From Terribacillus sp. DMT04 (GTDB taxonomy: Bacteria > Bacillota > Bacilli > Bacillales > Amphibacillaceae), in contig NZ_CP077639.1 of the NCBI RefSeq assembly GCF_019056395.1, positions 2,668,001-2,732,000 on the forward strand: 64,000 bases of DNA, in the 5' to 3' direction. Made by a program: the position numbers and the translations under genes. Position 1 is the stretch's first letter. Each line of letters begins with the position of its first letter. The notes under the pieces are model-generated. The model searched no databases and had not been told where the DNA came from. It saw only the letters and a program-made list of their open reading frames with translations. Of the stretch, positions 3,197 to 53,065 are shown in pieces.

Positions 3197-3197
3197 C

Positions 3198-20728: not shown

Positions 20729-21443
20729 GACCGAGAACAATCCGGAACATAAACTCAAATGCCTTTAATATTCTTTTCCAGCGGAATGGCTGTTTTACTA
20801 AGCGATACGCCCACTCCAAATTTAATTTGATCCAAATACGCGGTGCACGGCTAACCTGTCCAGCAAGTATATCGAAAACACCGCCAACGCCCATCAAAAC
20901 GCCTTTTTCAAATAGGTGTTGATGTGCAGCAATCCACTTTTCTTGCTTCGGAAATCCAAGTGCAGCAAAAACAAAGTCAGGTTTAGTTGCAGCCACATGC
21001 TCAGCAACTTCTTCATCGTTTGTAAAGTAGCCGTTGTGCCTTCCAGCAATAACGATACCTGGATATTGTGACATCACGTGGTTAACAGCCCGCTCATTTA
21101 CCTCCTCGGTAGCACCTAAAAAGTAGCAGCTCAAATTATGCTTGTCTGCATAACTAAGCAATCTGAACATCAAGTCAAAGCCCGTCACACGTTCTTCTAT
21201 TGGATTTCCTAATATTTTCGATGCAACAACGATACCAGCACCATCAGGAATAATGTAATCAGCACTTTGTACGCTCTCTTTATATATATGATCAATGCGT
21301 GTCTGCATCACAATTTCAGGATTTGCTGTTACAATAAATGTCCTTTGATTCTTCTCTATACGCTTATACAAATGCTTTAATAATTCCTTTTGAGTTAGTT
21401 TATCGAAAGGAATTTGCATTACCTCTACTTTTTCATTATCCAA
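20703..21443 (-). CDS. tagA: UDP-ManNAc transferase TagA/TarA (WecG/TagA/CpsF family)
   Basis: Enzyme of 246 residues that adds N-acetylmannosamine to undecaprenyl-PP-GlcNAc, the second step of the WTA linkage unit, at the inner membrane face. Family marks: TANPEIVMQTR, the catalytic Asp in IIPDGAGIV (about residue 67), VFAALGFPKQEKW, and the C-terminal LNLEWAYRLVKQPFRW segment involved in membrane contact. The start is TTG at 21443 with AAAGG about 10 nt upstream; an in-frame ATG eight codons later is a weaker option. It works after TagO and before TagB, all encoded in this window. Confidence 0.9.
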   Translation of the reverse strand: MDNEKVEVMQIPFDKLTQKELLKHLYKRIEKNQRTFIVTANPEIVMQTRIDHIYKESVQSADYIIPDGAGIVVASKILGNPIEERVTGFDLMFRLLSYADKHNLSCYFLGATEEVNERAVNHVMSQYPGIVIAGRHNGYFTNDEEVAEHVAATKPDFVFAALGFPKQEKWIAAHQHLFEKGVLMGVGGVFDILAGQVSRAPRIWIKLNLEWAYRLVKQPFRWKRILKAFEFMFRIVLGRNKNKAGS

Positions 21444-24804: not shown

Positions 24805-24916
24805 AAACAAACCCCTTATGTTAGATTAAGTCTAAGATAGTTGTAAAACTTTTTCCTCCTTTAGGCCTACAGAGGGCATATAGCTCATTTTATAAACTTC
24901 ACCCCTCCATACCTAT

Positions 24917-24941
24917 ATATCGGTATTTCGCTTTCAATTTA
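24917..24941 (-). promoter_or_regulatory. Possible sigma-D promoter of the amidase gene
   Basis: On the minus strand TAAA, 13 bases, ACCGATAT; the sigma-D consensus is TAAA-N15-GCCGATAT. The -10 matches 7 of 8, but the spacing is short. Autolysins such as lytD are sigma-D genes in B. subtilis, which gives the match some weight. Confidence 0.35.
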
Positions 24942-24952
24942 AAGTTATAAAT

Positions 24953-24990
24953 GCAAAAAAAATACATTGCCCTGTTTAGGACAATGTACT
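24953..24990 (-). terminator. Terminator after the glucosaminidase gene
   Basis: Minus-strand stem TACATTGTCC / GGGCAATGTA with a 6-base loop, followed by eight T. It separates the glucosaminidase gene from the amidase gene. Confidence 0.85.
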
Positions 24991-24995
24991 TTTTA

Positions 24996-28265: not shown

Positions 28266-28414
28266 AATTCTCCCCCAACGGCTTATTTGATTTTCAATGT
28301 GCAAAGAATAGAGACTAATATGTATGTCTATCTATAAACCCGAGACTATAAGAGCACCACCTTCAGAGAATTCATAGGTATAAAGTCTATACGCATATAA
28401 ACTTACCAATGTTA

Positions 28415-28650: not shown

Positions 28651-30549
28651 TTAATTTATCTTAAAACTTAAATTACCATGTTTCTCAGTGAAATAAGGTT
28701 TGACTTTACGGTTTGATATCTTACTTAAGTCCCCTTTTACTTCTCTTTTATTTCCCACTCTTATATTATGATAAGTAGTTCCGTCTTGAACTTCAATACT
28801 GAAATCGTACGTTTCATTTTTTTGCATAGATTTTGCATCAAAGGTTACAGAATATATCTTTTTTCCTTCTCTGCTGTCTGTAAGTTCTGCATTTAAAGCA
28901 ACAGACTCTCGTTTTTCTTTATTTTCCAACGTTGATCGTAAATAAAACAGACCTTTAATTGTCGGATGTACATCGCGTTCCGTCTTACACGTTATTTCTA
29001 CTAGAAGCTTGTATACATACTTATTACTTTCTTTAATATCTAATAATTTGGTGCTTACATCATATGGACTAACCTTCTTTTCAGTATCTCTGAATAACTG
29101 CAGCCACTTCTCTGCAAACTTTTCATGGGTGAAGTCCTTAATATAATACAGTGCTTTTTCTTGGAACATTGCTTTTTCATCCTGGCTCAAATTCAAATAA
29201 TGTGTAATCTTCTCTGCCAATCTTTCCACATTCTTATCTTCTACCAGAAAACCATTCTCACCATTATGAATCATATCAGATGGACCATATTTTATATCAT
29301 AAGCTATAACAGGCGTCCCATTTGCAAGACTTTCCTGTACCACGAGCCCAAATCCTTCATAGTTAGACGTAAGTATTGAACAATCTGCTTTTTGCAGTAC
29401 CTCATCAACATTACTGGAATATCCTTTTAAAATTACATTATCTTTCACTTTTAAGTCTGTAATTAACTTGTCTAAAATACTTCGATGTGGGCCCTCACCG
29501 TAGATAAGAAGTTTTGCATCATGCACCTTCTTACTAACTATGCTGAAAGCTTTGATTGCATCTTCTATATTTTTTTCCTCATGTAATCTTGAAATGAGTA
29601 CAACTTCTTTATTATTTTTCTTATGCTTTATTTCTTTCTCTTCAATAGAATGCGGTATAACACAATAATTGCTTCGATTTCCGAATCTATTAATTACATC
29701 TTTTTTTTGTTTTTCCGTGAGCAGTACAAGGGAATCGACATCATTTAAGTTATTTAATACGGGTCTATTACCCGCTCGGATAATATCTGTGCCAGGGCGA
29801 ATATGTATACTGTGGGTCATAAATACTTTTCTTACATTTTCATTGTCTATACTAAGTATAACCGAATCCAAACCTCTGGCTTCTCCTACCAGATAGGTTA
29901 ACGAAGCTTCTACAAATTCCATAACAAAATATTTTTTAAAAGCATCAAAATCAGTAAACCTTTGATACCTTCCATTCGAAAGGAATAATATAATACTCTT
30001 GATTGTATCCTTACCGTTTGCTGCATCGAACTCTCTAGTCAGATATACAGACTGATCTTTCCTATATAAAACCTGTCTTGATATGTAACCATTCAAATAA
30101 AAGCTTCTGGAATATAGGTAACCATCCGGATCCAGTGTTTCTTTTTTATACATTTCGTTATTAGGGTTGAAATATAATAACTCTGCTAGATTATCATCTT
30201 TATATACTTTTTCCATTACTTTAATGCCATCTTTGTAGAGCTCGCGTTTTGTATTTGAAATGTTTACCTCTAAACAGTCATTCTCTAGAATCTCGAACTT
30301 AATCATTTCATGGAGTTGATTCCTGCTTCTGTAAAAATCATTTATATTTTCTATACGAATATTATTGGATAAATTATAACGCGCCGCAATCTCTTTTCTA
30401 ACTTCTGTGAATTTTTGATCCAAGTGAAAAGTAAGTATTGTTGATCCTAAGTCCTTCAATTCATCCAATATCCTGGCTTTATTAAGTAATGAAGCGGTTA
30501 ACCCACCGTGATCCTTATCTAACCTGCTCGTAATATATACTACATTCAT
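28651..30549 (-). CDS. TarM/TagE-like GT4 glycosyltransferase
   Basis: Cytoplasmic glycosyltransferase of 632 residues with GT-B fold. It opens VVYITSRLDKDHGGLTAS, followed by an extended beta region (about 80-230, with KRELYKDGIKVMEK and repeated strands) as in the DUF1975 part of TarM and TagE. The GT4 donor-site half has VVLISRLHEEKNIEDAI, LLIYGEGPHR and the E-x7-E motif in EGFGLVVQES (about residue 410). About 130 extra residues (500-632) form a predicted beta-sandwich. TarM adds alpha-GlcNAc to ribitol phosphate and TagE adds glucose to glycerol phosphate; the tarIJL genes upstream favour ribitol phosphate as acceptor, but this is inference. It follows tarL after 255 bp with a hairpin between, so it may be its own unit. 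GGAGG precedes the ATG. Confidence 0.75.
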   Translation of the reverse strand: MNVVYITSRLDKDHGGLTASLLNKARILDELKDLGSTILTFHLDQKFTEVRKEIAARYNLSNNIRIENINDFYRSRNQLHEMIKFEILENDCLEVNISNTKRELYKDGIKVMEKVYKDDNLAELLYFNPNNEMYKKETLDPDGYLYSRSFYLNGYISRQVLYRKDQSVYLTREFDAANGKDTIKSIILFLSNGRYQRFTDFDAFKKYFVMEFVEASLTYLVGEARGLDSVILSIDNENVRKVFMTHSIHIRPGTDIIRAGNRPVLNNLNDVDSLVLLTEKQKKDVINRFGNRSNYCVIPHSIEEKEIKHKKNNKEVVLISRLHEEKNIEDAIKAFSIVSKKVHDAKLLIYGEGPHRSILDKLITDLKVKDNVILKGYSSNVDEVLQKADCSILTSNYEGFGLVVQESLANGTPVIAYDIKYGPSDMIHNGENGFLVEDKNVERLAEKITHYLNLSQDEKAMFQEKALYYIKDFTHEKFAEKWLQLFRDTEKKVSPYDVSTKLLDIKESNKYVYKLLVEITCKTERDVHPTIKGLFYLRSTLENKEKRESVALNAELTDSREGKKIYSVTFDAKSMQKNETYDFSIEVQDGTTYHNIRVGNKREVKGDLSKISNRKVKPYFTEKHGNLSFKIN

Positions 30550-32736: not shown

Positions 32737-33885
32737 TTACTTAAAGTCACGGACTATTAATTCTGAAACTCGACTTGTATTATCAAAATTCAGTGATACC
32801 ATCCGTGATGAATCAAAGTACTCATTTTTACTTCTTGCGTTAATCCATTCAACCAGCTGCTCACTTGTTTCCAACATATCACCATCTGAGATGACTTCTA
32901 ATTGCTGATATAATCCCCGATTTGTTTCGTATTCATGCAAATCTGGAATAAAATGAGCAAATGGTTTCCTTAACAAGGCAAATTCGAAAACGGAAGAAGA
33001 ATAATCTGTCATAAATGCATCAGCTATAAGCATCCATTCATTAATGAAACCTGACGAAGCAACTAATACATTACTGAATTCTGCAAGCTTATTCAGTTCT
33101 TCAACAGGTGTATATGGATGTGCTTTGTAAATAATTTGAACGTTGGGGTTAATTGCTTTAGCAATATCTTTGATTACCTTCTCCATGTTCAAATTTGATT
33201 CTCGCTGCGCTCCTCCTGCCCGGTAAGTTGGAGCAATTAACACACGGACCGTATCGACATTGTTCCAAATTGGAAAGCTGCTGAAAAGTTTCTTTTCAAC
33301 AGCTTCAACGTCCTTAACGGATGTAAATAAATCTGTTCGGGGAACACCAATAGGAATAACGCGTTCTTGCGGAAGATTAAAAGCTTCTGCATAAAAAGGT
33401 ACAACGCTAGTAGAAGAAACATACACATGCGTATACGTGGCATGGATCGGTACAAGCTTTAAATAAGATGGATTCGGGCCGAAATTGGTTCCTATTGTGC
33501 TGTATCCAAACTTTTTAAATGCTCCTGCGGCATGCCATAATTGGACTATCTTAAGGTTTTGGTCTTCCTTAATCAAGTACACTGGCAAGTAGTAATCATC
33601 TAAGATGACACATTTAGCTTCAGCAAGATAGGGAATTTCTTTCAGCATGGAGAGATTCCACTTATTTGCCCCTCTTATAAAGCGAACCTTTGCATTCGGC
33701 ACCTGGCGCAATAGTTCATCATATACATAAGCCAGATTGCCTTCTGGTTTATCAGTTCTATATAGAGCAAATAAGTAGTACTCTCTATTCCCATTGTTCT
33801 TAAATCTATAAAGTTTATAAGCTAGACGGAATAAACTTCTATACAGCCAGATAAAAATTCTCTTCCATGGTGACAGAGAATCCAT
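32737..33885 (-). CDS. TarF/TarK-like CDP-glycerol/ribitol phosphotransferase (primer enzyme)
   Basis: Transferase of 382 residues lacking the accessory N-terminal domain of TarL. It starts with a basic amphipathic segment (WKRIFIWLYRSLFRLAYKLYR) for membrane contact, then family motifs LWHAAGAFKKFGYST, IPIGVPRTD, IYKAHPYTP and TDYSSSVFEFALLRKP. By size and operon position between tarJ and tarL it should add the first glycerol or ribitol phosphate unit(s) to the linkage unit, as TarF or TarK do; sequence alone does not decide which. Its ATG follows directly on the tarJ stop codon (TAAATG). Confidence 0.8.
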   Translation of the reverse strand: MDSLSPWKRIFIWLYRSLFRLAYKLYRFKNNGNREYYLFALYRTDKPEGNLAYVYDELLRQVPNAKVRFIRGANKWNLSMLKEIPYLAEAKCVILDDYYLPVYLIKEDQNLKIVQLWHAAGAFKKFGYSTIGTNFGPNPSYLKLVPIHATYTHVYVSSTSVVPFYAEAFNLPQERVIPIGVPRTDLFTSVKDVEAVEKKLFSSFPIWNNVDTVRVLIAPTYRAGGAQRESNLNMEKVIKDIAKAINPNVQIIYKAHPYTPVEELNKLAEFSNVLVASSGFINEWMLIADAFMTDYSSSVFEFALLRKPFAHFIPDLHEYETNRGLYQQLEVISDGDMLETSEQLVEWINARSKNEYFDSSRMVSLNFDNTSRVSELIVRDFK

Positions 33886-37967: not shown

Positions 37968-39059
37968 TTATTGATGCTGTCGTTTACGTTTTTCTTCTTC
38001 TGTTTCTTTATGGAAACCGACCATATTGAGCAGCGGACGATAGCGTTCACTAATCAATCCTGTAATCTCAACAATCAGTTCAATGAGTATTGCCAGTGAA
38101 ATAATTAGGATAGCTGATCCCCACATCGTTGCTTCTGTATACAGGACACCTGTAATACTGAAGATACCGCTAATGGCATAAATGACGATAACCGTCTGAC
38201 GATGCGAGAATCCTAGATTCAACAGACAGTGATGCAGGTGGAACTTATCCGGCGCTGACAATGGTTTCTTTTGTACGATCCGGCGGATGATTGCGAACGT
38301 CGTATCCAAGATTGGTACTCCAAGGATGATAATCGGCACAATCAAGGAGAATAAAGCGACGTTCTTGAATAGTCCGCTAACAGATAGCACGGCTATCATA
38401 TAGCCAAGAAACAGCGCTCCTGTATCTCCCATGAATATCTTCGCCGGGTGGAAGTTAAAGACTAGGAATCCAAGCGTGCTTCCCAAAAGGAGCACACCCA
38501 TCATGGCGGAAATTGGGTTCCCCATGCTGATTGCGATCATGGAAATGGTGAACAGCGCGATAGCGGAAACACCTGCTGCTAATCCATCCAATCCATCAAT
38601 TAAGTTGATTGCGTTTGTGATACCAACAATCCACAGAATTGTAATTGGAATTGCCCATGCGCCAAATTCAATTCGGCCTGTGAAAGGCAGTGTGACAAAG
38701 TCAATCTGAATGCCGCCAAGGACTGTTACAGTCGCTGCTGCAATCTGACCGATAAGCTTTACTTTTGCTGATAAGATAAATTTATCATCAAGCATTCCAA
38801 TTAATGTAATCATTGTTGCACCAATTAAAATCGGTGCAGTATTCGAATCATTTGGCATGAAAATCAGATAACCAAGAATGAAACTGATGTAAATGGCCAG
38901 TCCGCCAAGCCGCGGCATAATTTTCTGGTGTACTTTTCTAGCGTTTGGTTTATCCGTTGCTCCGATTGCGAATGCCAGCTTTTTCACCATAGGTGTCAGC
39001 ACTAGCGATAAAACGAAGCAGGCTGCCAACGCTATGATTAAAGGCGTTATGTGTACCAT
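37968..39059 (-). CDS. tagO: UDP-GlcNAc:undecaprenyl-phosphate GlcNAc-1-phosphate transferase TagO
   Basis: Membrane enzyme of 363 residues that starts WTA synthesis and often also other wall polysaccharides. About 10-11 membrane helices. Motifs of the MraY/WecA family: DKPNARKVHQKIMPRLGG, GMLDD (metal-binding Asp pair), NAINLIDGLDGLAAG, KIFMGDTGALFLGY and the His motif FHLHHCLL. The ATG at 39059 follows AGGAGG. Since it lies beside both the WTA genes and a Wzy/flippase operon, it may feed both pathways. A basic C-terminal tail (EEEKRKRQHQ) lies in the cytoplasm. Confidence 0.93.
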   Translation of the reverse strand: MVHITPLIIALAACFVLSLVLTPMVKKLAFAIGATDKPNARKVHQKIMPRLGGLAIYISFILGYLIFMPNDSNTAPILIGATMITLIGMLDDKFILSAKVKLIGQIAAATVTVLGGIQIDFVTLPFTGRIEFGAWAIPITILWIVGITNAINLIDGLDGLAAGVSAIALFTISMIAISMGNPISAMMGVLLLGSTLGFLVFNFHPAKIFMGDTGALFLGYMIAVLSVSGLFKNVALFSLIVPIIILGVPILDTTFAIIRRIVQKKPLSAPDKFHLHHCLLNLGFSHRQTVIVIYAISGIFSITGVLYTEATMWGSAILIISLAILIELIVEITGLISERYRPLLNMVGFHKETEEEKRKRQHQ

Positions 39060-39260: not shown

Positions 39261-39746
39261 TTAGGCTTCTTTTAGGAAGTTGTTTAGAATGGAGAACATT
39301 TGCTCTTTACCAGATTTGAACGGGACTGGCTCAAAGCTTGCTGTCTGTTCCATGACCTTACCGAGATCTTCGCCTTCTCCCCAGCTTAGAATATGCTTTT
39401 GTTCCAGGAAAATAGATAAAAGCTGCAGCTGGTGATCATCATTATGTTCGCCATACTTTTTCAGCCGTGCTGCTGCAATCACTTTCTTTCCTTTCTTTAA
39501 AGCAGAAATAACGGATCCAGTGCCGGCATGTGTAATGACAATTCTAGCATCTGCCATTAGCTGATCCATTACGTCATAGTTAACAAATGGCTTGATGTTC
39601 AATACATCACTTTCGTACTTTGTGTGGCCTGCCTGGACGACGACTTCTTCTGTTTCTGTTATAATTCCTTCCCTCTTGAGCCGCTCTACTTCTTCTAAAA
39701 GCCGTGTAAAGGGAAGTTCATGGGTTCCTAAAACAACGAGTATCAA
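39261..39746 (-). CDS. Alg13/EpsF-type glycosyltransferase half (donor-binding)
   Basis: Protein of 161 residues matching the C-terminal, nucleotide-sugar-binding half of MurG-like GT-B enzymes. It starts ILVVLGTHELPFTRLLEEV and contains VVVQAGHTKY and the donor-site motif ITHAGTGSVISALKKGKKVIAAARLKKYGEHNDDHQ. The start is TTG 39746, overlapping the stop of the previous gene (TTGA) behind a G-rich site, so the two halves are coupled and surely act together as a two-subunit enzyme, like Alg13-Alg14 or PssE-PssD. Sugar and acceptor unknown. Last gene of a four-gene polysaccharide operon. Confidence 0.85.
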   Translation of the reverse strand: MILVVLGTHELPFTRLLEEVERLKREGIITETEEVVVQAGHTKYESDVLNIKPFVNYDVMDQLMADARIVITHAGTGSVISALKKGKKVIAAARLKKYGEHNDDHQLQLLSIFLEQKHILSWGEGEDLGKVMEQTASFEPVPFKSGKEQMFSILNNFLKEA

Positions 39747-40213
39747 TAGATGGACCCCCCGTAGACCGCTTTCGGGTAAATCTGCTTCATTGTTTCCCAT
39801 TGCACAATGAATAAGTCGGCAATTGGATAGATCATCTTTCCTGATAAAGTTGGCGACGTGGACTTTGCAAAGCTTTCAATAAAGATAACTCTTTTCCCAA
39901 AGAGTTTAGCGATATAGCACATCGGAACGGATGTATGCGCACCTGTGGAGATAACGACATCCGGGCGATGTTTCAGGAATAAAAAGATCGACTTGATGAT
40001 GTTATAACTGAACTTAAAAATATAGCGAAAAGGATAGTTTCGTGCTCCGTAGACAAGAAAGCTCATTGGGTGCTTCCCTTTCATCTGTTCCGTAATTTCG
40101 GATTTCTCCGTCACAATATGATAATCATATTCCTTGAACAATGGTTCCAGCTGCAATAGCTGGGTTAAATGTCCGCCGATGGATGAGATTAGAAGCAGTT
40201 TTTTCTTTTTCAT
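39743..40213 (-). CDS. Alg14/PssD-type glycosyltransferase half (membrane-anchor and acceptor side)
   Basis: Protein of 156 residues matching the N-terminal half of MurG-like enzymes. Marks: LLISSIGGHLTQLLQLEPL (glycine loop), the middle basic amphipathic segment FKFSYNIIKSIFLFLKHRPDVVISTGAHTSVPMCYIAKLFG, and IESFAKSTSPTLSGKMIYPIAD near the end (shortened here). It binds the Alg13-like partner and docks it to the membrane. ATG 40213 with GGAG ten bases upstream. Preceded by the Wzy-like gene with a 33-bp gap. Confidence 0.85.
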   Translation of the reverse strand: MKKKKLLLISSIGGHLTQLLQLEPLFKEYDYHIVTEKSEITEQMKGKHPMSFLVYGARNYPFRYIFKFSYNIIKSIFLFLKHRPDVVISTGAHTSVPMCYIAKLFGKRVIFIESFAKSTSPTLSGKMIYPIADLFIVQWETMKQIYPKAVYGGSIY

Positions 40214-40246
40214 CAAGAATTCGCTCCATTCCGTTATGGTTAGATG

Positions 40247-41632
40247 CTATTGAAAGAACTTCTCCGGTTTCTGTCTGAGTAATCCATATAGGAACCCGAG
40301 GAGCAGTGCTAAATAAAATCCAGATGCTGGTGATGATAGAATATGACCAGCTATGAACGCTGCTCCAAGTCCGATACAAGCGCCGGCACCTGTAAATAAT
40401 GCCGAAGCATGTAAGGTCCGGAAACGCTGTTTGAAAATAAATACAAGAATGCTGCCGATAACAAACAATAAAGGAAGTATCAGAATGAATGTGCCTAAAT
40501 AACCGAAACCAAAGAACCAATCAAGAATATCCATCTCAATAATACGCGGTTGTTCACCTGTATAGTTCCCGCCAATACCCATACCAAAGACTTTTTGGAT
40601 AACTGGTGCATGTTCAAAATAGTAAAGAACTGTACCGAAATACTCCTCTCGGCCGTTTAAAGCCATGAGCTGCCAGGAGCTCCACTGCCTGACACTTCCC
40701 GGAGGCGGGACCTCTCCTTCTTCCACTTCTTCTGGAAGCGGTGCTGTTTCTAGGGCCTCTTCCTGCTGCTGCGCTTTTTCATTGGCCATTTCAACAGATA
40801 AACCGAGGTTGTTGCCGATTGGCATCTCCGGTGTAACAAATATGGTCACCGCCAATAATACAAGCACAACACCTGCCTGTATGAGATTGCTTCGCTTCAC
40901 AATGACTTGTACAAGCAGCAGAACAAACGCAAAACCTAAAACAACTAAAGCTGCGCCAAACGCAACCTTCGTTCCGATTGTGAGCATTGCCCATATCATG
41001 ACAGCGACGAGTGCTGTGCAGATAATTTGTGCGAGCATCCCCTTCTTAACGAACAGATAGTAGATGATTGCTCCGCAGAAGCCCATGCCTAAAATGGCAC
41101 TGATTTCATTGCCGGAAAAGAACCAACCGGAATGACCTTGTTTCGCCAAGTAATCGTAGCTTCGTTTGCCTGTTCCTGTTAACTCGGCAATCAGCATAAC
41201 GACGCTAACAACGCTTGTATTGATGAACAGGTACTTTGGCACCGTGACCTTCCAATCACGATTCTTACCAAGATGGCGGAAGATCATGACATAAACGAGC
41301 AGCGCCGTGATGAAGAAGAAAGTCTTCAGGATAAACGTCAGCTCACCCACAGCCGAGACGGGATCTTTCCATACCATATTGACTGCAAAATTGGCTGCAA
41401 AATAAACAGCTAGAACAGCCATGTAAATGAACGTATTTCTGCTCCATCGTCTATCCGGGTAACTAAGCATGTACAGCATGCCAATCGGAATGACGAGAAG
41501 TCGTATCGGATTGGAAACCGGTATAGAGAAATACGCCAGTAAATCAAGAAAAGGCTGAGCTAGTATAAAGAAGATGAATAGTTTTTCTAATGTATGATGA
41601 TTATCCTTAAGTCTTTGCATCAATGCTTGCAA
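40247..41632 (-). CDS. O-antigen ligase/polymerase (Wzy/TuaE-like) membrane protein
   Basis: Integral membrane protein of 461 residues with about 10-12 helices. A large extracellular loop (about 275-345) is rich in Glu/Pro (EEALETAPLPEEVEEGEVPP) before GSVRQWSSWQLMALNGREEYF and FGMGIGGNYTG, the layout of O-antigen ligase/Wzy polymerases. It likely joins lipid-linked repeat units into a polymer outside the membrane. The TTG start at 41632 has GGAGG eight bases upstream. It sits between the flippase gene and the Alg14/Alg13 pair. Confidence 0.8.
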   Translation of the reverse strand: MQALMQRLKDNHHTLEKLFIFFILAQPFLDLLAYFSIPVSNPIRLLVIPIGMLYMLSYPDRRWSRNTFIYMAVLAVYFAANFAVNMVWKDPVSAVGELTFILKTFFFITALLVYVMIFRHLGKNRDWKVTVPKYLFINTSVVSVVMLIAELTGTGKRSYDYLAKQGHSGWFFSGNEISAILGMGFCGAIIYYLFVKKGMLAQIICTALVAVMIWAMLTIGTKVAFGAALVVLGFAFVLLLVQVIVKRSNLIQAGVVLVLLAVTIFVTPEMPIGNNLGLSVEMANEKAQQQEEALETAPLPEEVEEGEVPPPGSVRQWSSWQLMALNGREEYFGTVLYYFEHAPVIQKVFGMGIGGNYTGEQPRIIEMDILDWFFGFGYLGTFILILPLLFVIGSILVFIFKQRFRTLHASALFTGAGACIGLGAAFIAGHILSSPASGFYLALLLGFLYGLLRQKPEKFFQ

Positions 41633-41665: not shown

Positions 41666-43177
41666 TTACTTAGCAGCAGAGCCGCCTCTTCCCAATAGGA
41701 TATAAAATGATTGTATTTTCATCAGGAATACGCAGAGCAGAAATACGATGACTCCGCTAATTGAACAAAGCAGGATCGTGATTATCGGCTGCAGCTGATT
41801 AACTACATCTTTTAGCAGGTAAACAGCAATTCCCATGATAAGTACACTGATTGTCGTTTTCGCAACATCCAGGAGCATTCCTTTAATCGGCAGCTCACCC
41901 ATCAGCTTGCGGAACAAAAGGAAACAAGTCAGCGCATAAATAAAGCCTGTTACCGATGATGACAGCGGAATGCCGATAAAACCGAAGCTTGCTGTAAATA
42001 TGTAGTTTAGCAAGAGCTTTAAAGCAATGGACAAAAAGCCGAGCCGCATCATGTAGTGCCCTTTTTCCATTGTATAAAAGCCATTGTTTACGATAATAAC
42101 CAAGCTGTAGAACAGAATCGTTCCAAAATAATAATATGCTGCTATGCTCGTCTCTTCTGTATGCTGCGCAGTAAATTTTCCATTTTCAAATAATACAGAA
42201 ACAATCTCGGGCATGAGCAGCATCATCCCTGTCAGAACTGGCAGAAGCACGAAGTACATAATTTGTAAGCCGCGCGTAATATTCGCCTTAAATCCTGCTA
42301 TATCTCCTTTTGTGTATGCAGCTGCCAGGAGCGGAAATACAATCGTCCCTATCGTAACGCCGACAATATTCTGGGGAAATTGCGTCAAATTCTTGGCTAT
42401 ATTCAGATAAGTAACGAAGCTGTCTCCAAGTCTGTTAGCAAACGATGTATCAATCGTTAATGTAATCTGCCCAATCATAGCCGTGAGTGCTACAGGTATG
42501 AAAATGTGGAAAAACCGCTTGTTCTCTGCCCAATTAATCTTGCCTTCCAACCGAAGAGTGCGTTTTGGCATAAGCAGTATTAATTTAAAAAGCAAGCTCA
42601 GGATGACTCCTGCTAAATTACCGAAAGCGAAAGCATACGCGCCAATTTGATCCGCAAAGAGTAAAGCACTCCCAATCGTTCCTAACAAGACGATTGCTTG
42701 GGCTAAGACGGATAAGTAATACTTGTTCTCTGCGTCAAAGTAGGCCTCCAGCACAGCATTGACTCCGACGAATAATAACGAAGAAAGAAATATAATCGTC
42801 ATGATTGTCGCCATCTGCGCTGTGTCACCTGTTAAGTTGGGAAACAAAAGCTGAATATAAACAGGTGCAATAGCAATGAACAGAATGGATAGCAGCAAAC
42901 TGAACAGCAGCGTGCCTTTCCATACATTTTGAAGATGAGACAAGCCTTTATTCTTTTCCTCATATTTAATGAAACTAGGTACAAATGCGCTCTTCATTCC
43001 TGTTGTCAGGAACAGAATGAACATATTCGGTAATGCAAATGCCGCATAGTAAGCATCTGCTTCACTGGTTGCTCCGAAGTAAAAGGTAATCAGCTGATCA
43101 CGAATCAAACCAGATACCTTCAGTAAGAGCGTCACCAATAACAGCAGCAAACTGGCGATGCGAAGTTTCGACTTCAT
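41666..43177 (-). CDS. MurJ/MviN-family lipid-linked oligosaccharide flippase
   Basis: Integral membrane protein of 503 residues with about 14 helices. It starts with the typical SGLIRDQLITFYFGATSEADAYYAAFALPN segment of MVF-family flippases (in short pieces GLIRDQL and EADAYY), and has PQNIVGVTIGTIVFPLLA. The family includes the lipid II flippase MurJ; the operon with a Wzy-like polymerase and a glycosyltransferase pair suggests a role as a polysaccharide-unit flippase (Wzx-like) rather than the essential MurJ. ATG 43177 is chosen (GAGAGG upstream, hydrophobic start); a longer in-frame start at 43270 has no support. Confidence 0.78.
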   Translation of the reverse strand: MKSKLRIASLLLLLVTLLLKVSGLIRDQLITFYFGATSEADAYYAAFALPNMFILFLTTGMKSAFVPSFIKYEEKNKGLSHLQNVWKGTLLFSLLLSILFIAIAPVYIQLLFPNLTGDTAQMATIMTIIFLSSLLFVGVNAVLEAYFDAENKYYLSVLAQAIVLLGTIGSALLFADQIGAYAFAFGNLAGVILSLLFKLILLMPKRTLRLEGKINWAENKRFFHIFIPVALTAMIGQITLTIDTSFANRLGDSFVTYLNIAKNLTQFPQNIVGVTIGTIVFPLLAAAYTKGDIAGFKANITRGLQIMYFVLLPVLTGMMLLMPEIVSVLFENGKFTAQHTEETSIAAYYYFGTILFYSLVIIVNNGFYTMEKGHYMMRLGFLSIALKLLLNYIFTASFGFIGIPLSSSVTGFIYALTCFLLFRKLMGELPIKGMLLDVAKTTISVLIMGIAVYLLKDVVNQLQPIITILLCSISGVIVFLLCVFLMKIQSFYILLGRGGSAAK

Positions 43178-43240
43178 GATAGGACCTCTCTCTATATGCC
43201 CATACAGCATGCAGCTGATGAGATGCGTATTGCTGGGTAA

Positions 43241-43270
43241 ATTATAAGGCGGAAACGAAAGCCGTTTCAA
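43241..43270 (-). promoter_or_regulatory. Promoter of the flippase-polymerase operon
   Basis: Minus strand TTGAAA, 18-bp spacer, TATAAT; leader about 57 nt. It lies in the 290-bp divergent gap 43178-43469. Confidence 0.65.
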
Positions 43271-43469: not shown

Positions 43470-44438
43470 TTGAAAATAGCTGTATTGATTCCATGCTACA
43501 ACGAGGAACAGACTATCGGTGACGTAATTGAGTCTTTCAGGAAACAGCTGCCGAATGCAGATATATATGTGTTCGACAATAATTCAAAAGACAAAACGAG
43601 TGAAGTAGCACGAAAGCATGGTGCGATTGTCCGCCAAGAATTCCAGCAAGGGAAAGGACATGTGGTTCGATCCATGTTTCGCAATATTGATGCTGACTGT
43701 TATGTGATGGTGGATGGTGACAACACATATCCGGCTGAATTTGTCCATGATCTGATTGCACCAATCCAAGAAGGACGAGCCAACATGGTTATTGGTGACA
43801 GACTGTCCAATGGTACGTATGTGAAAGAAAATAAACGCAAGTTCCATAACCTTGGCAATACGATGGTAAAAAACTGCATCAACTTTCTTTATAAAAAGAA
43901 ACTTAGCGACATTATGACCGGCTACCGTGCTTTTGACCGCTTGTTTGTTAAAACAATGCCGATTATGAGCCCTGGTTTCGAGATTGAAACAGAAATGACA
44001 ATCCACGCATTAGACAAGCGGCTGTCGATTGTCGAAGTGCCGATTTTGTATCGGGACCGTCCAGAAGGAAGTTATTCAAAACTGAATACATTAGCAGACG
44101 GACGCAAAGTATTGTATAAGATTTTTACGCTATTCAAGGAGTATAAACCGATGCTGTTTTTCACAGCGTGGTCCATGCTGTTTTTTGTGCTCGGTTTAGT
44201 TGTCGGAATACCAGTTATCGTTGAATACTTCAATACGCAATTCATCACTCGGGTGCCTTCTGCGATTCTGGCTGTCGGGTTGATTGTCCTATCGGTGCTG
44301 AGCTTCGGCTGCGGTGCCATACTGGATACTGTAGCTTCCAATCAGCGCAAGCAGTACGAATTAGAATTGAATCGAATTCAAGCTGAAACGAAACCAAAAC
44401 CTGTCCAAGGTATGACCAGAACTGGAGGCTCTATGTAA
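43470..44438 (+). CDS. Polyprenyl-phosphate glycosyltransferase (GT2, DPM1/CsbB-like)
   Basis: Enzyme of 322 residues. The GT2 domain (about 1-225) has VLIPCYNEEQTIGDVI, metal-binding VDGDNTYP, and MTGYRAFDR, as in dolichol-phosphate-mannose synthase-like enzymes. Two C-terminal membrane helices (about 235-258 and 268-292) resemble those of CsbB and GtrB. It should link a sugar to undecaprenyl phosphate on the inner face. TTG 43470 is chosen because GGAG lies eight bases upstream; GTG 43461 overlaps that site. The next gene starts on the last base of its stop codon (TAATG), so a tight operon with the DUF6020 and SMR-type genes is certain. Confidence 0.85.
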   Translation: MKIAVLIPCYNEEQTIGDVIESFRKQLPNADIYVFDNNSKDKTSEVARKHGAIVRQEFQQGKGHVVRSMFRNIDADCYVMVDGDNTYPAEFVHDLIAPIQEGRANMVIGDRLSNGTYVKENKRKFHNLGNTMVKNCINFLYKKKLSDIMTGYRAFDRLFVKTMPIMSPGFEIETEMTIHALDKRLSIVEVPILYRDRPEGSYSKLNTLADGRKVLYKIFTLFKEYKPMLFFTAWSMLFFVLGLVVGIPVIVEYFNTQFITRVPSAILAVGLIVLSVLSFGCGAILDTVASNQRKQYELELNRIQAETKPKPVQGMTRTGGSM

Positions 44439-46177
44439 TGCTGCAATTCCGGAACTTTTTAATAAGTGTGGCTGCAGGATTTGCAGCCACTATTTCTGTA
44501 TTAGCTGTTATGCAGGAAAGACAGGATACCTCCCTTTTGAAGTATGCTGTTCTTACTGTGATTAGCATTTGTTTCTTTTTTGCTTTCTTGACATTTCGCA
44601 GAGGGATTACACATGCGGTTCTGGAGCGTCGTTACATATTAGTTGGTATCATGATTCTCTCGGTGTTTACACTGATTAGCTTAATTGACTGGCCGCTGTT
44701 TCTGAATCGGCCTTGGTATGAGACAGTGATTATTGATTTCATTTCACTGGCAACAATTTTCTGTTTCTTTTCCTTTATCGCCTTTCTTTTATTGAAGGGC
44801 GGCTATGTATGGCAGCGGACAGAGGTAAGCAAGTGGACAATATTGTGGTATATGCTGCCGATGATTTTTGTCTGGATGTTTTACTTGCTTGCCTTCTTCC
44901 CAGGAAATATGAGTCCAGATTCCTTGAACCATTGGCGGCAAGTGGAGAACATGGAATTCAATAACTGGCATCCATTTGCTTATACAATGGTCATTCTTGT
45001 ATTGACGCAAATTTGGGATTCACCAGCTGTTATTGTTATTTTCCAAATGCTGCTGTTGTCTTTTGTTTATTCATTTGGACTGTATTCTTTCCGCCAATAT
45101 GGACTTGGTAAGAGAATCGCCTGGGTAGCCGCAATCCTTTGGGCAGTACTGCCAATCAACGGTATCTTCTCCACCATTCTCTGGAAAGATGTTGTTTATA
45201 GTACGTTTATCGTCTTCCTGACTATCTTTGTGATGAAGACTGTATTACAAGAAGGGAAAAATCTGCGCACCTGGAGCGGCATTGCTACTTTTACCATTGT
45301 GTTAGTAGGCATTGCGTTTTTCCGAAATAACGGATTGCCGATTGCCATTCTGACTGCAATTGGCATGCTAATCGCTTACCGTCACATTTGGAAGCAGCTG
45401 CTGACACCGCTTGTGCTCGTCTCTGCGCTTTATGTGATTGTGACGGGACCCGTGTTTACAGCTTATAACATTCAATCAGCCAATCCGAATGAATCCATGA
45501 GCATCCCAACACAGCAAATAGCTGCTGTTGTCTCTCAGGACGGAGAGCTGACAGAAGAACAGCTTGCTTACCTTGATACGATTTTGCCAATCAATGACTG
45601 GAATGCTTATAACCCGTATTTAACCGATCGAATTAAATTCCATGACAACTTTCATGAAGATGTCATTATAGAAGATATGGGGAAATATTTGTCTGTATGG
45701 TTTGATATTGTGAAGCAGAATCCCGCCTTGGTAGTAGAAGCTTATTTGAAACAAACGTCATTAGTATGGCAAATTAATAAGCCAGTTGACGGCTATACGA
45801 ATCCTTACACAATTGACGTGGACCCGAATGAAATGGGTCTGGAAACGAAACCGGTCAGCCAAACATTGTACGATGGGGTAGAATATTTACTGGAGACATC
45901 TCGCTATCATACAGAAGAGCTGTTCTGGCGCCCAGCGGTATTCAGTATACTCATCATCTTTTTCAGCTTGATTGCTTCACGTAAATTAGGAGCAGTAGCT
46001 TGGCTGCCGATCTTACCAGTTCTCTTTAATACAGCGACAATCTCTGTCGGCTTGCCGGCACAGGATTACCGTTACCTTGTAAGCAATGCAATGGTAAGTA
46101 TCTTCTTCCTGCTCTTTGCTAGTCTGTATAAGAAAGGAAAGGAGCCAGCTTATGGCGTACACGCATCCCGAAAGTAA
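44438..46177 (+). CDS. DUF6020-family polytopic membrane protein, putative GT-C glycosyltransferase
   Basis: Membrane protein of 579 residues with about 12-13 helices. After the fifth helix a loop reads FFPGNMSPDSLNHWRQ followed by NNWHPFAY, characteristic of DUF6020 and like the first outer loop of GT-C enzymes, where acidic residues act in catalysis. A soluble segment of about 110 residues (about 345-460) is flanked by helices, again as in GT-C proteins. The function is not established. Its place behind a GT2 lipid-carrier enzyme and ahead of a flippase-like pair argues that it transfers the lipid-borne sugar to an acceptor outside the cell, as YfhO does with CsbB. The acceptor may be WTA or lipoteichoic acid. 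Confidence 0.7.
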   Translation: MLQFRNFLISVAAGFAATISVLAVMQERQDTSLLKYAVLTVISICFFFAFLTFRRGITHAVLERRYILVGIMILSVFTLISLIDWPLFLNRPWYETVIIDFISLATIFCFFSFIAFLLLKGGYVWQRTEVSKWTILWYMLPMIFVWMFYLLAFFPGNMSPDSLNHWRQVENMEFNNWHPFAYTMVILVLTQIWDSPAVIVIFQMLLLSFVYSFGLYSFRQYGLGKRIAWVAAILWAVLPINGIFSTILWKDVVYSTFIVFLTIFVMKTVLQEGKNLRTWSGIATFTIVLVGIAFFRNNGLPIAILTAIGMLIAYRHIWKQLLTPLVLVSALYVIVTGPVFTAYNIQSANPNESMSIPTQQIAAVVSQDGELTEEQLAYLDTILPINDWNAYNPYLTDRIKFHDNFHEDVIIEDMGKYLSVWFDIVKQNPALVVEAYLKQTSLVWQINKPVDGYTNPYTIDVDPNEMGLETKPVSQTLYDGVEYLLETSRYHTEELFWRPAVFSILIIFFSLIASRKLGAVAWLPILPVLFNTATISVGLPAQDYRYLVSNAMVSIFFLLFASLYKKGKEPAYGVHASRK

Positions 46178-46508
46178 TCCGCAGCATAAGCCAAAGCTTG
46201 GCCTTGCGTTAATTCTGCTGTCTGCAGCTTTCACGAGTGTTGGACAGCTATTATGGAAAATTGCGGATGGAGAGATTAATTTTCCGCTCCTGGTTGGGTG
46301 CGTTTGTTATGGTGCAGGTGCAGTAACGATGATAACGGCGTTTCGATTTGGGAAGCTAAGCGTACTGCATCCGATGCTGAGCCTTGGTTATGTATTTGCT
46401 CTATTCATGGGAGCGTTTTTCTTAGAAGAGCCTATTTCGCTCATGCATATCATTGGCACAGCGTTAATTATTGTAGGTGCTATCTTGATTGGAGGCGGTG
46501 ACAATTAG
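46152..46508 (+). CDS. SMR/EamA-type half-transporter, first subunit
   Basis: Small membrane protein of 118 residues with four helices (about 18-38, 45-67, 74-93, 97-115). ATG 46152 has AAAGGAG seven bases upstream and lies inside the end of the DUF6020 gene. The pattern SAAFTSVGQLLWKIADG and HPMLSLGYVFALFMGAFFLEEPI is that of EamA/SMR proteins such as ArnE/ArnF, which flip undecaprenyl-phosphate-aminoarabinose. It is followed by an overlapping paralogue, so the two probably form a heterodimer. Confidence 0.8.
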   Translation: MAYTHPESNPQHKPKLGLALILLSAAFTSVGQLLWKIADGEINFPLLVGCVCYGAGAVTMITAFRFGKLSVLHPMLSLGYVFALFMGAFFLEEPISLMHIIGTALIIVGAILIGGGDN

Positions 46509-46815
46509 CTGGGTCTTGTTACTGTCTTGCACACTGCTCGGAGCCATTGGCGGATTCTACTTCAAACGCGCCAGCGATCCGCTGATGAACACCTATCGTA
46601 CTTTATTTATTGGCCTTGTCTGCTACGGTTCAGCAGCTTTAATCAATATTTACGTGCTGACGTTGCTTCCCTACTCGGTCGTCTTCCCACTGACGGCGAT
46701 CACCTATGTGTGGACGCTCTTACTTTCGTATTATTTTCTAAAGGAGCGTATTAAGATGAGGCAAACAATCGGTGTCGGGCTGCTTGTTGCCGGCGCCGCA
46801 TGCCTTGTCCTCTAG
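46489..46815 (+). CDS. SMR/EamA-type half-transporter, second subunit
   Basis: Membrane protein of about 108 residues with four helices; FKRASDPLMNTYRTLFIG and VVFPLTAITYVWTLLLSYYFLKERI match EamA/SMR half-transporters and the first subunit. The start is uncertain. TTG 46489 has only a weak site; GTG 46498 is too close to GGAGG; ATT 46504 is ideally placed eight bases after GGAGG but would be a rare start codon. It ends the operon at a terminator. With its partner it is a good candidate to flip the lipid-linked sugar made by the GT2 enzyme. Confidence 0.78.
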   Translation: MEAVTISWVLLLSCTLLGAIGGFYFKRASDPLMNTYRTLFIGLVCYGSAALINIYVLTLLPYSVVFPLTAITYVWTLLLSYYFLKERIKMRQTIGVGLLVAGAACLVL

Positions 46816-46858
46816 AAAAAGACTCCCATTTCATACATCATGAATGGGAGTCTTTTTC
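46815..46858. terminator. Bidirectional terminator
   Basis: AAAAAGACTCCCATT ... AATGGGAGTCTTTTT, strong stem with T-runs on both strands, between the convergent SMR-type and TetR genes. Confidence 0.9.
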
Positions 46859-47452
46859 TTCTGCTATATTCTTATTAATTAGCCTGTAAGGACGCACCCT
46901 CACGAGCTCTGTGAATTGCTGGGATAAATGTAAAGTGGAAAACTTAAAGTCTGTATCCGCCCAACGCATGATAAAACCAACAGTAGCTGCCATTTGAAAA
47001 TGAATCATCAAATCATAATCTACTGGGATACTTGGTTCCTCCGTTTCCATATATATATCACCAGATAAGCACTCCACGAAAACGTTCAGCATCTTGTCAT
47101 GGATATCTGAATACAAAATGCGCAGCGCCTGCAATACGTGTCTCTCCTCATAGATATGCGTAAATATCCGCATCGTTGACGGAGCCTGCTCTTGCAGATT
47201 AACATACGCACTATGTTTATACGGCTCTAGCAATGCTATTGCAATACCATCCAAAAAATCCTGCAAAATTCTTTCTTTCAAGCTCTCTTTATCAGCAAAG
47301 TGCTTGTAAAAAGTACCACGATTATAATCCGCTTTATCAGCAATTTGCTGAATGCTGATACGTTTCTCTTCTTCTGCTAAAACCAAGTCAACGTATGCTC
47401 GCTTGAGTGCATTGATGCTTCTCCTGCTGCGACGATCTGTCTTCCCATTCAT
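46838..47452 (-). CDS. TetR/AcrR family regulator
   Basis: Repressor-type protein of 204 residues. The N-terminal helix-turn-helix reads ISIQQIADKADYNRGTFYKHFADKESL, the TetR signature; the C-terminal helical domain (TetR_C_33-like, about 80-190) would bind a ligand. ATG 47452 is chosen; a TTG two codons upstream is possible, with AAAGGA near. Divergent from the SDR gene by about 180 bp, so it probably controls that gene and itself. The C-terminus overlaps the bidirectional terminator. Confidence 0.85.
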   Translation of the reverse strand: MNGKTDRRSRRSINALKRAYVDLVLAEEEKRISIQQIADKADYNRGTFYKHFADKESLKERILQDFLDGIAIALLEPYKHSAYVNLQEQAPSTMRIFTHIYEERHVLQALRILYSDIHDKMLNVFVECLSGDIYMETEEPSIPVDYDLMIHFQMAATVGFIMRWADTDFKFSTLHLSQQFTELVRVRPYRLINKNIAEEKDSHS

Positions 47453-51847: not shown

Positions 51848-52936
51848 TTAAACGGAAAATATCTTTGTAAGACGTGGCTTTATTGCGTCCACCTCATAGG
51901 AGGCAGCAGTTTTTCGGGCACCTGCTTTTATCATCTGCTTGGTTTCTTCCGGCAGATCCATATAGGTAATGATGCTGGCAGCCAGTTCATCTGCTGAACC
52001 AGGCTCAAAAAAAAAGCCATTTTGGCCATGCTCCATATAATCAAGCAATCCGGCCATACGGCTGCCAATTACAGGTGTGCCGCAGGCCATCGCCTCCAAT
52101 CCAACTAAACCAAGACTTTCTCCTTCGCGCATGGTTGGAAAACAGAAAATCTCCATACTATTGTAGACACTGTTCAGCTTTTGTTGGGGCAGCAGCGGGA
52201 AATGAACAAGCACTTCCCTTAGACCATAGCTGTCTACCATCTCCTCAAATGCTTCCTTTTCTAAACCATCACCGATGAACAATAGCTTGTAGTTGTTCAA
52301 TCTGCCTTGCTGCTTTAATAGTTTCGCAGCTTTCAAATAAACATCCCAGCCTTTGCCCCGGTCGATGCGGCCGACAAACCCAATATATTTATAGGAAGTA
52401 TTCAGCTGTAATTCTTGATAAGCATGCTGCGGATCTTTTTCATAGAAGGTTTCCTTATTAATGCCGCCTGAAGGGAAGATTTCAATCCGATTGGTCAGTC
52501 CGTATTTTTGCAGTACGAGCTGCTTGTAATACGCGCTTGGCGTAATTACAGTGTCAGATACCTCCAACAGCCGCTTTACATAAGGCTGGTATTTCTCCCT
52601 TTTCTTGAATTCAGGCACCACATCACTGCCATGCACATTTGTATAAACTACCATATTTTTATTCAGCTTTTTCGCTATTAACACGGGAATGGAATTATGC
52701 GTGGCATAGTGCACATAAGTAACATCATACTTCCGAAAGATAGATTTACCGATTATGCGAAAAAAATGACTTCCGTATGCTAGCAGCTTGCCGATGGAGC
52801 TTGATTGTTTCGTGACGACAGTGCGGTCAAAACTTGCACCAGCCTGTGCAAGTATCTTTTCTGTATTCTCGACGAACACGCCATAGTTGGGATGTTCTTT
52901 GCTTGGATACATGTTAGCGATTAAATGAACTTTCAT
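51848..52936 (-). CDS. GT4-family glycosyltransferase
   Basis: Cytoplasmic GT-B enzyme of 362 residues. It starts KVHLIANMYPSKEHPNYGVF and carries the usual marks: VHGSDVVPEF, IEIFPSGGIN, GFVGRIDRGKGWDVYL, LLFIGDGLEKE and the E-x7-E motif within TMREGESLGLVGLEAMACGTPV (about residue 290). ATG 52936 is chosen (AAGGGG seven bases upstream) over an upstream in-frame ATG. It resembles TuaC or EPS-type enzymes, but donor and acceptor cannot be told. It stands apart from the other polysaccharide genes, beside an intergenic repeat and facing no partner. Confidence 0.82.
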   Translation of the reverse strand: MKVHLIANMYPSKEHPNYGVFVENTEKILAQAGASFDRTVVTKQSSSIGKLLAYGSHFFRIIGKSIFRKYDVTYVHYATHNSIPVLIAKKLNKNMVVYTNVHGSDVVPEFKKREKYQPYVKRLLEVSDTVITPSAYYKQLVLQKYGLTNRIEIFPSGGINKETFYEKDPQHAYQELQLNTSYKYIGFVGRIDRGKGWDVYLKAAKLLKQQGRLNNYKLLFIGDGLEKEAFEEMVDSYGLREVLVHFPLLPQQKLNSVYNSMEIFCFPTMREGESLGLVGLEAMACGTPVIGSRMAGLLDYMEHGQNGFFFEPGSADELAASIITYMDLPEETKQMIKAGARKTAASYEVDAIKPRLTKIFSV

Positions 52937-53065
52937 AAATGAGCCCCTTACGTACGTGATTGTAAACAAATTGTACGCTTATTCACCAATTGTTGCAGTA
53001 TGATTGTAGATAACTTTAAAAACACTTTACAAACCATGATCTAACAATCCACTAAACTCCAACAA

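Follow-up and report, generated by a model that had tools for sequence, protein, structure and literature searches.

A candidate glycosylation operon of Terribacillus sp. DMT04 combining a GT2 glycosyltransferase, a DUF6020 protein and a pair of small multidrug resistance proteins

Organization of the operon

The subject of this analysis is a four-gene operon of Terribacillus sp. DMT04 (genome size 3.52 Mb) located in a 64,000-nucleotide stretch of contig NZ_CP077639.1; the whole stretch is referred to below as the window, and positions are given within it. The operon occupies positions 43470–46815 on the plus strand and encodes a GT2 family glycosyltransferase, a large membrane protein of the DUF6020 family and two proteins of the small multidrug resistance (SMR) type, SMR1 and SMR2. 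It is considered here as a candidate system that loads a lipid carrier with a sugar, flips it across the membrane and transfers the sugar outside. A first-pass annotation, made from the sequence alone, had described four genes, each overlapping the next, and all four open reading frames (ORFs) were found.

The GT2 gene ends at 44438 and starts either with TTG at 43470 or with GTG at 43461. Its product (322 aa) is of the AglJ/DPM1 type and carries two hydrophobic stretches at the C-terminus, in line with the two C-terminal helices annotated earlier. The TTG start is favoured because a GGAG motif was seen by eye 8 bases upstream of it and homologous proteins begin at the same residue. The DUF6020 gene (44438–46177, ATG start, 579 aa) overlaps the GT2 gene by one base and is overlapped by 26 bases by the gene of SMR1 (46152–46508, ATG start, 118 aa). 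The SMR2 gene (105 aa) ends at 46815 and starts with GTG at 46498 or TTG at 46489, so that its overlap with the SMR1 gene is 11 or 20 bases, respectively. Both SMR proteins contain four helices. The DUF6020 protein is 94% identical to the copy of T. aidingensis.

Downstream of the operon lies a convergent gene for a TetR-family regulator. A strong, nearly symmetric hairpin was found between the two (46814–46859; folding energy −26.4 kcal/mol, z-score −9.1). It was detected by separate folding, as the terminator rule of the promoter scan missed it. The scan itself gave six sites in comparison with 7.7 expected by chance and was not used.

The GT2 glycosyltransferase

The GT2 protein matched the family profile PF00535 with 77.1 bits (cut-off 23.3). 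The best model was that of AglJ (TIGR04182), with 257.4 bits over residues 3–296 of 322, the equivalog cut-off of 325 not being reached. The nearest relative with a solved structure was dolichol-phosphate-mannose synthase (5mlz, E = 2e-14). The DGD, QGKG, GDR and RxxGSxSK residues were invariant in 26 sequences. We propose that the protein is a membrane-linked GT-A enzyme, which is predicted to load undecaprenyl phosphate with a hexose.

Assignment to the CsbB type, which the first-pass annotation had suggested, was tried and rejected. The window GT2 shared only 25% identity over 177 residues with CsbB of the same genome, and that CsbB scored best to PgfS (388 bits) and ArnC (160 bits), both below cut-off, instead of AglJ.

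The DUF6020 protein

The assignment of the 579-residue protein to DUF6020 was clear (PF19484, 79.5 bits, cut-off 28.3, profile positions 213–468). In addition, a sub-threshold match to PMT_2 (PF13231; 20.7 bits, cut-off 26.1, E = 5.3e-4) covered residues 178–335. Modeling with AlphaFold2 from 64 sequences led to a model with a pLDDT of 91.1 and a pTM of 0.91, which was compared with the PDB using Foldseek, the best 50 of 171 matches being considered. All seven of these matches with a probability above 0.9 were GT-C glycosyltransferases (Pmt4 chains, 1.00; Pmt1-Pmt2, 0.99; ALG9, 0.91), with E-values of 0.04–0.59. Weaker matches were obtained with EmbB (0.75), ALG3 (0.66), and ArnT and an archaeal oligosaccharyltransferase (both 0.54). 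The Pmt matches at ranks 1–3, 7 and 13 aligned over about 270–290 columns, a stretch which, on the model, we read as the conserved GT-C core.

Residues D161, K250, D251, R296, Q359, Q360, R545 and Y546 were invariant in the 64 sequences. According to the positive-inside rule, D161 and H178-P179 lie in one extracytoplasmic loop, which is preceded by a four-helix bundle at the N-terminus and one further helix, and the PMT_2 match begins at H178. In Pmt and ArnT, the catalytic acid is located in the corresponding loop.

A search of PDB sequences with the DUF6020 profile gave one chance match (E = 0.17). Comparison of the DUF6020 alignment by hhalign with DUF2142, DUF7657, a PMT_2 protein and MurJ (negative control) gave probabilities below 1% for all four; this result says nothing, because the control with the known PMT_2 protein failed too. 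The structure comparison bears out the GT-C-like layout that had been noted before, and the DUF6020 protein is, on the predicted model, probably a GT-C glycosyltransferase with four extra N-terminal transmembrane helices. The role of final transferase ascribed to it earlier likewise becomes probable.

The SMR1-SMR2 pair

As annotated earlier, both small proteins are four-helix SMR/EamA half-transporters: SMR1 and SMR2 scored 32.4 and 42.6 bits, respectively, with EamA (PF00892, cut-off 28.2). The bias of lysine and arginine residues was positive in SMR1 (N-terminus inside) and negative in SMR2 (N-terminus outside) in all 42 pairs, namely those of the window and of the 41 loci described in the next section. 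This opposite bias allows us to expect an antiparallel heterodimer. The AlphaFold2 model of SMR2 (pLDDT 93.1) matched EmrE with a TM-score of 0.81, a probability of 1.00 and an E-value of 0.0028. At the position of the central glutamate of EmrE, SMR1 has threonine in 39 of the 41 loci, serine in one and isoleucine in one, and SMR2 has glycine in all 41.

The pair had previously been called an ArnEF-like heterodimer. Its paired nature, opposite topology and lack of the central glutamate agree with this; the likeness does not extend to the NCBIfam equivalog level, since the best scores were 40.4 bits for ArnE (cut-off 92) and 25.9 bits for ArnF (cut-off 99). According to the available part of PMC9574504, asparagine often replaces the glutamate in lipid SMRs, for which facilitated diffusion is possible, without experimental proof; the lipid SMRs of the reference genome set used there are singletons, and pairs are noted in some bacteria. 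As both SMR1 and SMR2 are devoid of the central glutamate, the passage of a sugar-lipid would probably occur without proton coupling. Based on the predicted fold, the opposite charge bias and the missing central glutamate, we propose the pair as a putative flippase of a lipid phosphate-linked sugar.

Conservation and co-occurrence of the four genes

A profile of 26 DUF6020 proteins (alignment A1; 34 initial loci from which the weak L032 and L034 and six near-identical rows had been dropped) was compared with genome contigs, and the best 80 of 237 relatives were examined. Of these, 41 (L035–L075) carry names of 18 Bacillales-type genera, a grouping made by us from the names. The other 39 are mostly of the Clostridia type and include three uncultured Bacilli (L090, L092 and L113), all without the cassette. 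Virgibacillus sp. 7505 (L041) was counted as Terribacillus, its DUF6020 protein being 88% identical to that of the window, and four loci (L046, L047, L059 and L067) stop at contig ends. The rows of alignments A2–A6 (64, 17, 15, 26 and 32, respectively) were picked by us, and A2 includes eight of the 39 other loci. Orthologue profiles were built from operon copies (A3 and A5, the latter also with six Clostridia-type loci) and used with thresholds of our choice, so that the GT2 and SMR1 counts in genomes of the order refer to orthologues of the operon copies, not to all GT2 or SMR proteins.

It was found that the GT2, DUF6020 and two SMR genes stand side by side in 41 of 41 loci of the 18 genera, with the order SMR-SMR-GT2-DUF6020 in three Geomicrobium loci. 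Among whole genomes, DUF6020 was present in 10 of 10 Terribacillus genomes. At the level of the order it occurred in 24 of 249 genomes, 23 of which passed the family cut-off, and at the level of the phylum in 8 of 398, five of which did so. Orthologues of GT2 (E ≤ 1e-60) were found in 22 of the 249 genomes of the order and orthologues of SMR1 (E ≤ 1e-12) in the same 22, all of them belonging to the 24 DUF6020-positive genomes (Fisher P = 1.5e-29 for either gene, with relatedness of the genomes ignored). The two remaining DUF6020 genomes have a sub-threshold fragment (G191) and a swapped cassette (G175). The co-occurrence of DUF6020 with GT2 and SMR pairs, a survey of which had been suggested, is thus well supported within these groups. 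The four proteins show correlated pairwise distances (Mantel r 0.70–0.89, P = 0.001), which allows us to assume that they have mostly travelled together. Mean divergence was 28% for GT2 versus 62% for DUF6020.

Several unusual loci were also observed. In Geomicrobium sp. JCM 19039 (L046, 6597–7564), one of the three loci with the altered gene order, the GT2 is split over two overlapping ORFs, which is either a true break or a draft error. DUF6020 paralogues without a GT2-SMR set of their own occur at L051 (10695–12446) and L137 (genome G160, copy on contig C4), that of L137 being distant. Four tandem DUF6020 genes were found in an uncultured Ruminococcus (L091, 3761–11275), and a Lachnospiraceae locus (L102, 7704–16731) contains DUF6020 together with four GT2 genes and an SMR pair on the opposite strand.

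Natural variants of the gene set

In genome G175, the GT2 and SMR orthologues of the operon type are gone and the run consists of a GT2 gene without transmembrane segments, DUF2304, EamA, GT4, DUF6020, MurJ and an O-antigen-ligase-like gene. Over 569 residues, its DUF6020 protein shares 62% identity with that of a congener (G201). A similar set, GT2-DUF2304-DUF6020-EamA-like, was found in G533, the EamA-like protein being sub-threshold (23.9 bits, cut-off 28.2). DUF2304 is also the family of GacJ of S. pyogenes. Conversely, G361 has DUF2142-GT2-SMR-SMR and G492 has GT2-DUF7657/DUF7654-SMR-SMR, with no DUF6020 at either spot; judging by gene position, DUF2142 and DUF7657 may be GT-C proteins. 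In both kinds of swap, a loader, a flippase and a large membrane protein are each still represented once, as a three-step model would require.

A related SMR pair was also seen in a like-sized gene set in three genomes (L171, L172 and L173) that belong to a single family within the same class. In L172, the locus that was checked, the pair is accompanied by genes for an HAD phosphatase, a UbiA-family prenyltransferase and a DUF6080 membrane protein; a homologue of the GT2 protein gave no score there. This set resembles the decaprenyl-phosphoryl-arabinose pathway and may be a polyprenyl-phosphate-pentose glycosylation system.

The variants bear on the question of whether DUF6020 is a transferase at all. 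It could instead be a polymerase- or ligase-like partner of a polysaccharide cluster, or the SMR pair could carry another substrate, for example free undecaprenyl phosphate. The lack of a DxD motif, Foldseek E-values above 0.001 and the four tandem DUF6020 genes of the uncultured Ruminococcus, unlike what a single decorating enzyme would give, agree with this, and no study of any DUF6020 protein was found in the literature searched, which excludes most subscription papers and preprints. We consider this explanation very unlikely: a GT2 gene accompanies DUF6020 in every locus of the named genera, G175 and G533 have lost the GT2-SMR set and have a GT2-DUF2304-EamA set in its place, and the O-antigen-ligase-like genes near the operon are separate from DUF6020.

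Genomic neighbourhood and the acceptor

Upstream of the operon, in divergent orientation on the minus strand, the window contains a gene of the MurJ family (Wzx-like flippase; 41666–43270; PF03023, 227 bits; TIGR01695, 243.5 bits, cut-off 235.55). It is followed on the same strand by genes for an O-antigen-ligase-like protein (40247–41632; PF13425, 260.6 bits), a PssD/Cps14F-type polysaccharide glycosyltransferase subunit (39746–40216; NF041549, 195.9 bits, cut-off 110), its PssE/Cps14G-type partner (39264–39800; NF041548, 119.9 bits, just below the cut-off of 120) and a TagO/WecA-like initiating sugar-phosphate transferase (37968–39056; PF00953, 145.5 bits). A GT4 glycosyltransferase gene (51848–52969, minus strand) belongs to a class that recurs near the operon and is the first gene of the run in Priestia.

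In order to compare the loci, neighbours within 8 kb of the operon in the 41 loci were grouped into similarity clusters. One to three members of most clusters were run against Pfam and NCBIfam; the classes UDP-glucose dehydrogenase, LCP, TarG, TarH, TarI, TarJ and TagD were named by eye. MurJ-like genes were found in 15 loci (6 of 18 genera), O-antigen-ligase-like and GT4 genes each in 14 loci (6 of 18 genera) and TagO-like genes in 12 loci (5 of 18 genera); in each of the four classes, seven of the loci belong to Terribacillus. The binomial P for 6 of 18 genera ranges from 1e-10 for a single-copy gene to 7e-5 for a gene with ten copies, assuming 4-Mb genomes. In three Priestia loci (L065, L066 and L068), the genes form a single seven-gene run: GT4-GT2-DUF6020-SMR-SMR-MurJ-O-antigen-ligase-like. 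Of the acceptors considered, we favour a secondary cell-wall polysaccharide of the Wzx/Wzy type, for which these neighbours would be responsible, at about even odds.

With respect to the donor, the 8-kb surroundings of the operon include a GalU-type gene in 12 of the 41 loci, which represent 7 of the 18 genera. In Pontibacillus (L053) this gene stands directly upstream of GT2 in the same run and passes the galU equivalog cut-off (398.6 bits, cut-off 326.8); this was the only GalU-type neighbour compared with the galU model. Phosphoglucomutase was found near the operon in two genera (one copy checked) and a UDP-glucose-dehydrogenase-like gene in three. AglJ is described in the available text of PMC3871713 and PMC4335974 as attaching the first sugar to dolichol phosphate. 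These neighbours and the likeness to AglJ point to glucose from UDP-glucose as the donor sugar, for which the chances are about equal either way.

The first-pass annotation had proposed wall teichoic acid (WTA) or lipoteichoic acid (LTA) as the acceptor of the same three-step machine. A WTA gene set is indeed present in the window (TarL-like, 32740–33885, PF04464; TagA-like, 20706–21443, PF03808), and in Terribacillus loci the 8-kb surroundings of the operon include TagD- and TarL-like genes. In 3 of 18 genera, genes of the sulfatase family, which we labelled LtaS-like (one checked, PF00884), are found close to the operon. The window's genome, in turn, has CsbB-GtrA-YfhO as one run elsewhere (G000:C1:427981-431927), a system of the LTA/WTA type in characterised species according to the available text of PMC8035078. 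YfhO with an adjacent GtrA gene was found in 10 of 10 Terribacillus genomes, and the LTA of this genus thus probably has its own system. Outside Terribacillus, YfhO was present in 5 and absent in 9 of 14 DUF6020 genomes tested (of 22 such genomes), and this absence makes LTA a possible acceptor there. Homologues of TagA, TarI, TarJ, TarG and TarH were found within 8 kb in none of the 41 loci (in the window most lie farther away), TagD-like genes only in Terribacillus and TarL-like genes only in Terribacillus and Sporolactobacillus. The tar region may also have a glycosyltransferase of its own: the GT4 protein encoded at 28651–30549 gave a just sub-threshold match to TarS_C1 (25.2 bits, cut-off 26.3) and 187 bits with SdgA (cut-off 800) and is perhaps, judging by sequence, a WTA glycosyltransferase. 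A search for Terribacillus and teichoic acid gave nothing relevant in the literature searched. As this genome also has CsbB-GtrA-YfhO and the neighbours recurring across genera within 8 kb are polysaccharide genes and not WTA genes, the teichoic acid proposal was retained only as an unlikely alternative.

It could also be assumed that the machine O-glycosylates surface proteins (S-layer or CWB2), as Pmt does. The top Foldseek matches of the DUF6020 model (best 50 of 171) were the O-mannosyltransferases Pmt4 and Pmt1-Pmt2, the GT2 protein resembles AglJ of S-layer glycoprotein N-glycosylation, and SLH-cluster genes (one member checked as SLH) and CWB2 genes occur near the operon in 5 and 4 of 18 genera, respectively. 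SLH and CWB2 surface proteins bind secondary cell-wall polymers, so they would sit near polymer genes anyway, and such neighbours fit a secondary cell-wall polysaccharide acceptor or protein glycosylation alike. Moreover, the likeness to Pmt4 concerns the general GT-C core, and linkage to MurJ, O-antigen-ligase and GT4 genes would be left unexplained. We regard protein O-glycosylation as improbable.

Two further features of the window, both judged by eye, concern the cell surface. Positions 3198–12296 encode a very large, repetitive surface protein of 3032 aa with an LPQTG motif near the C-terminus, accompanied by a small sortase-like gene at 2606–3235. Positions 21754–28304 encode two large proteins of autolysin-like appearance, whose long repeat modules closely resemble each other.

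Proposed mechanism

Gene content, conservation, predicted folds, topology bias and module swaps allow us to assume, with a probability of roughly 0.8, that the operon is a self-contained, multi-component transmembrane glycosylation system working by loading, flipping and transfer, each catalytic and transport step of which we infer from these data. The load-flip-transfer logic of the first-pass annotation is thereby retained, resting on the linkage of the genes, the predicted GT-C fold, the SMR pair and the swaps. The AglJ-type GT2 would place a hexose, most likely glucose from UDP-glucose, on undecaprenyl phosphate at the inner face of the membrane. The antiparallel SMR1-SMR2 heterodimer would then allow the lipid phosphate-linked sugar to reach the outer face, a passage probably not coupled to protons, and the DUF6020 GT-C protein would hand the sugar to a surface polysaccharide outside. 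The acceptor would be the secondary cell-wall polysaccharide of the TagO/WecA-like, PssDE, O-antigen-ligase-like and MurJ-like genes, with the MurJ-like (Wzx-like) protein exporting its repeat unit and the O-antigen-ligase-like protein acting as its Wzy-type polymerase or ligase.

A number of observations weigh against this reading. Outside the named genera, an adjacent SMR pair was found in 0 of the 39 other loci (best 80 of 237 relatives), only 8 of the 39 have a strong GT2 (at least 135 bits, within 200 bp) beside DUF6020, and some DUF6020 paralogues, namely the second copy of L051 and that of L137, stand without the cassette. With regard to the transferase, no Foldseek match of the DUF6020 model reached E ≤ 0.001 among the best 50 of 171, TM-scores to GT-C proteins were about 0.3, and no DxD motif was found in the 64 sequences, D161 and K250-D251 being the only candidates. 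The neighbourhood is patchy as well: the 8-kb surroundings contain no MurJ-like gene in 12 of the 18 genera, no O-antigen-ligase-like gene in 12 either, neither of the two in 11 and no GalU gene in 11, and within genera one of four Halobacillus and, for the O-antigen-ligase-like gene, one of three Geomicrobium loci have such neighbours. The neighbour P-values presuppose independent genera. Finally, the MurJ-like protein of the window scores above the MurJ equivalog cut-off and may therefore flip lipid II and not be a Wzx.

Comparison with known systems

The available text of a 2021 review (PMC8035078) tabulates Gram-positive three-component systems with flippases of the GtrA and Wzx types; SMR, EamA and ArnE are without mention in that text. 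Three of the systems described there, GtsABC, CsbB-GtcA-YfhO and CsdC-CflA-CsdD, likewise comprise a GT-A enzyme loading undecaprenyl phosphate, a small flippase and a GT-C protein. The operon differs from them in that its flippase is an SMR heterodimer, not of the GtrA or Wzx type, its GT2 is AglJ-type, not CsbB/ArnC-type, its GT-C protein belongs to the uncharacterised DUF6020 family and all parts are in one operon. No match to YfhO (PF09586) or GtrA (PF04138) was found in the four operon proteins at E ≤ 0.1. The nearest published arrangement is GtsABC of B. anthracis, proposed to decorate units of a Wzx/Wzy-type secondary cell-wall polysaccharide (PMC8035078), which shares with the operon the link to Wzx/Wzy-like polysaccharide genes.

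The ArnC-ArnE/ArnF-ArnT system of lipid A aminoarabinose modification also has a GT2, a paired lipid SMR without the central glutamate and a GT-C protein, as far as described in the available part of PMC9574504. Unlike ArnE/ArnF, the operon pair has threonine and glycine, not asparagine, at the central position and does not reach the equivalog cut-offs, and the GT2 and GT-C proteins are from other families than ArnC and ArnT. AglJ of haloarchaeal N-glycosylation (PMC3871713 and PMC4335974, in part) resembles the operon GT2 along almost the entire sequence, with the membrane part at the C-terminus included. The operon GT2, in turn, is bacterial, scores below the AglJ cut-off and stands together with the SMR pair and a GT-C protein of another family. 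GacI-GacJ-GacK-GacL of S. pyogenes likewise decorates a cell-wall polysaccharide by means of a GT2, a flippase and a GT-C protein, and GacI-GacJ is resembled by the DUF2304 variant of G175 and G533; GacK is of the Wzx type in contrast to the SMR pair of the operon, and GacL is a PMT_2 protein (available text of PMC8035078 and PMC10821137).

SMR transporters such as E. coli ArnE/ArnF are presented as a third class of lipid-linked-sugar translocators in the available part of PMC7389260, where GtrA of phage SfX is also counted as an SMR member. A three-component system with a flippase of SMR-like type is therefore not a novelty in itself. In the literature searched, with most subscription papers and preprints excluded, no paper on an SMR pair as the flippase of a Gram-positive glycosylation system was found, nor was any described system with this exact gene set, in agreement with the first-pass annotation. 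The kind of system is known; the elements that appear to be new are the SMR pair in the flippase seat and the proposed role for DUF6020.

Significance for the protein families

The module swaps lead to a broader, still tentative idea, to which we give slightly less than even odds: GT2-SMR-SMR may be a portable platform in which a paired lipid SMR devoid of the central glutamate passively flips undecaprenyl-phosphate-glucose and so displays it outside the cell, with DUF6020, DUF2142, DUF7657 and perhaps DUF6080 as interchangeable plug-in GT-C transferases. If so, the conserved GT2 (28% divergence) and the fast-diverging DUF6020 (62%) would mirror the use of a single donor sugar with many different acceptor polysaccharides. 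The pairs would then form a Gram-positive subclass among the lipid SMRs, heterodimeric in nature; no description of such a subclass was found. The swaps also offer a genetic handle on which part sets the donor and which sets the acceptor.

The available text of PMC8035078 gives the flippases of B. subtilis YkoT-YkoS and YkcC-YkcB as unknown, and small SMR pairs are a candidate class for these missing components. In the operon, the flippase of a Gram-positive glycosylation system would be an SMR heterodimer, and DUF6020 would gain a concrete, testable role, the suggested first working function for this family.

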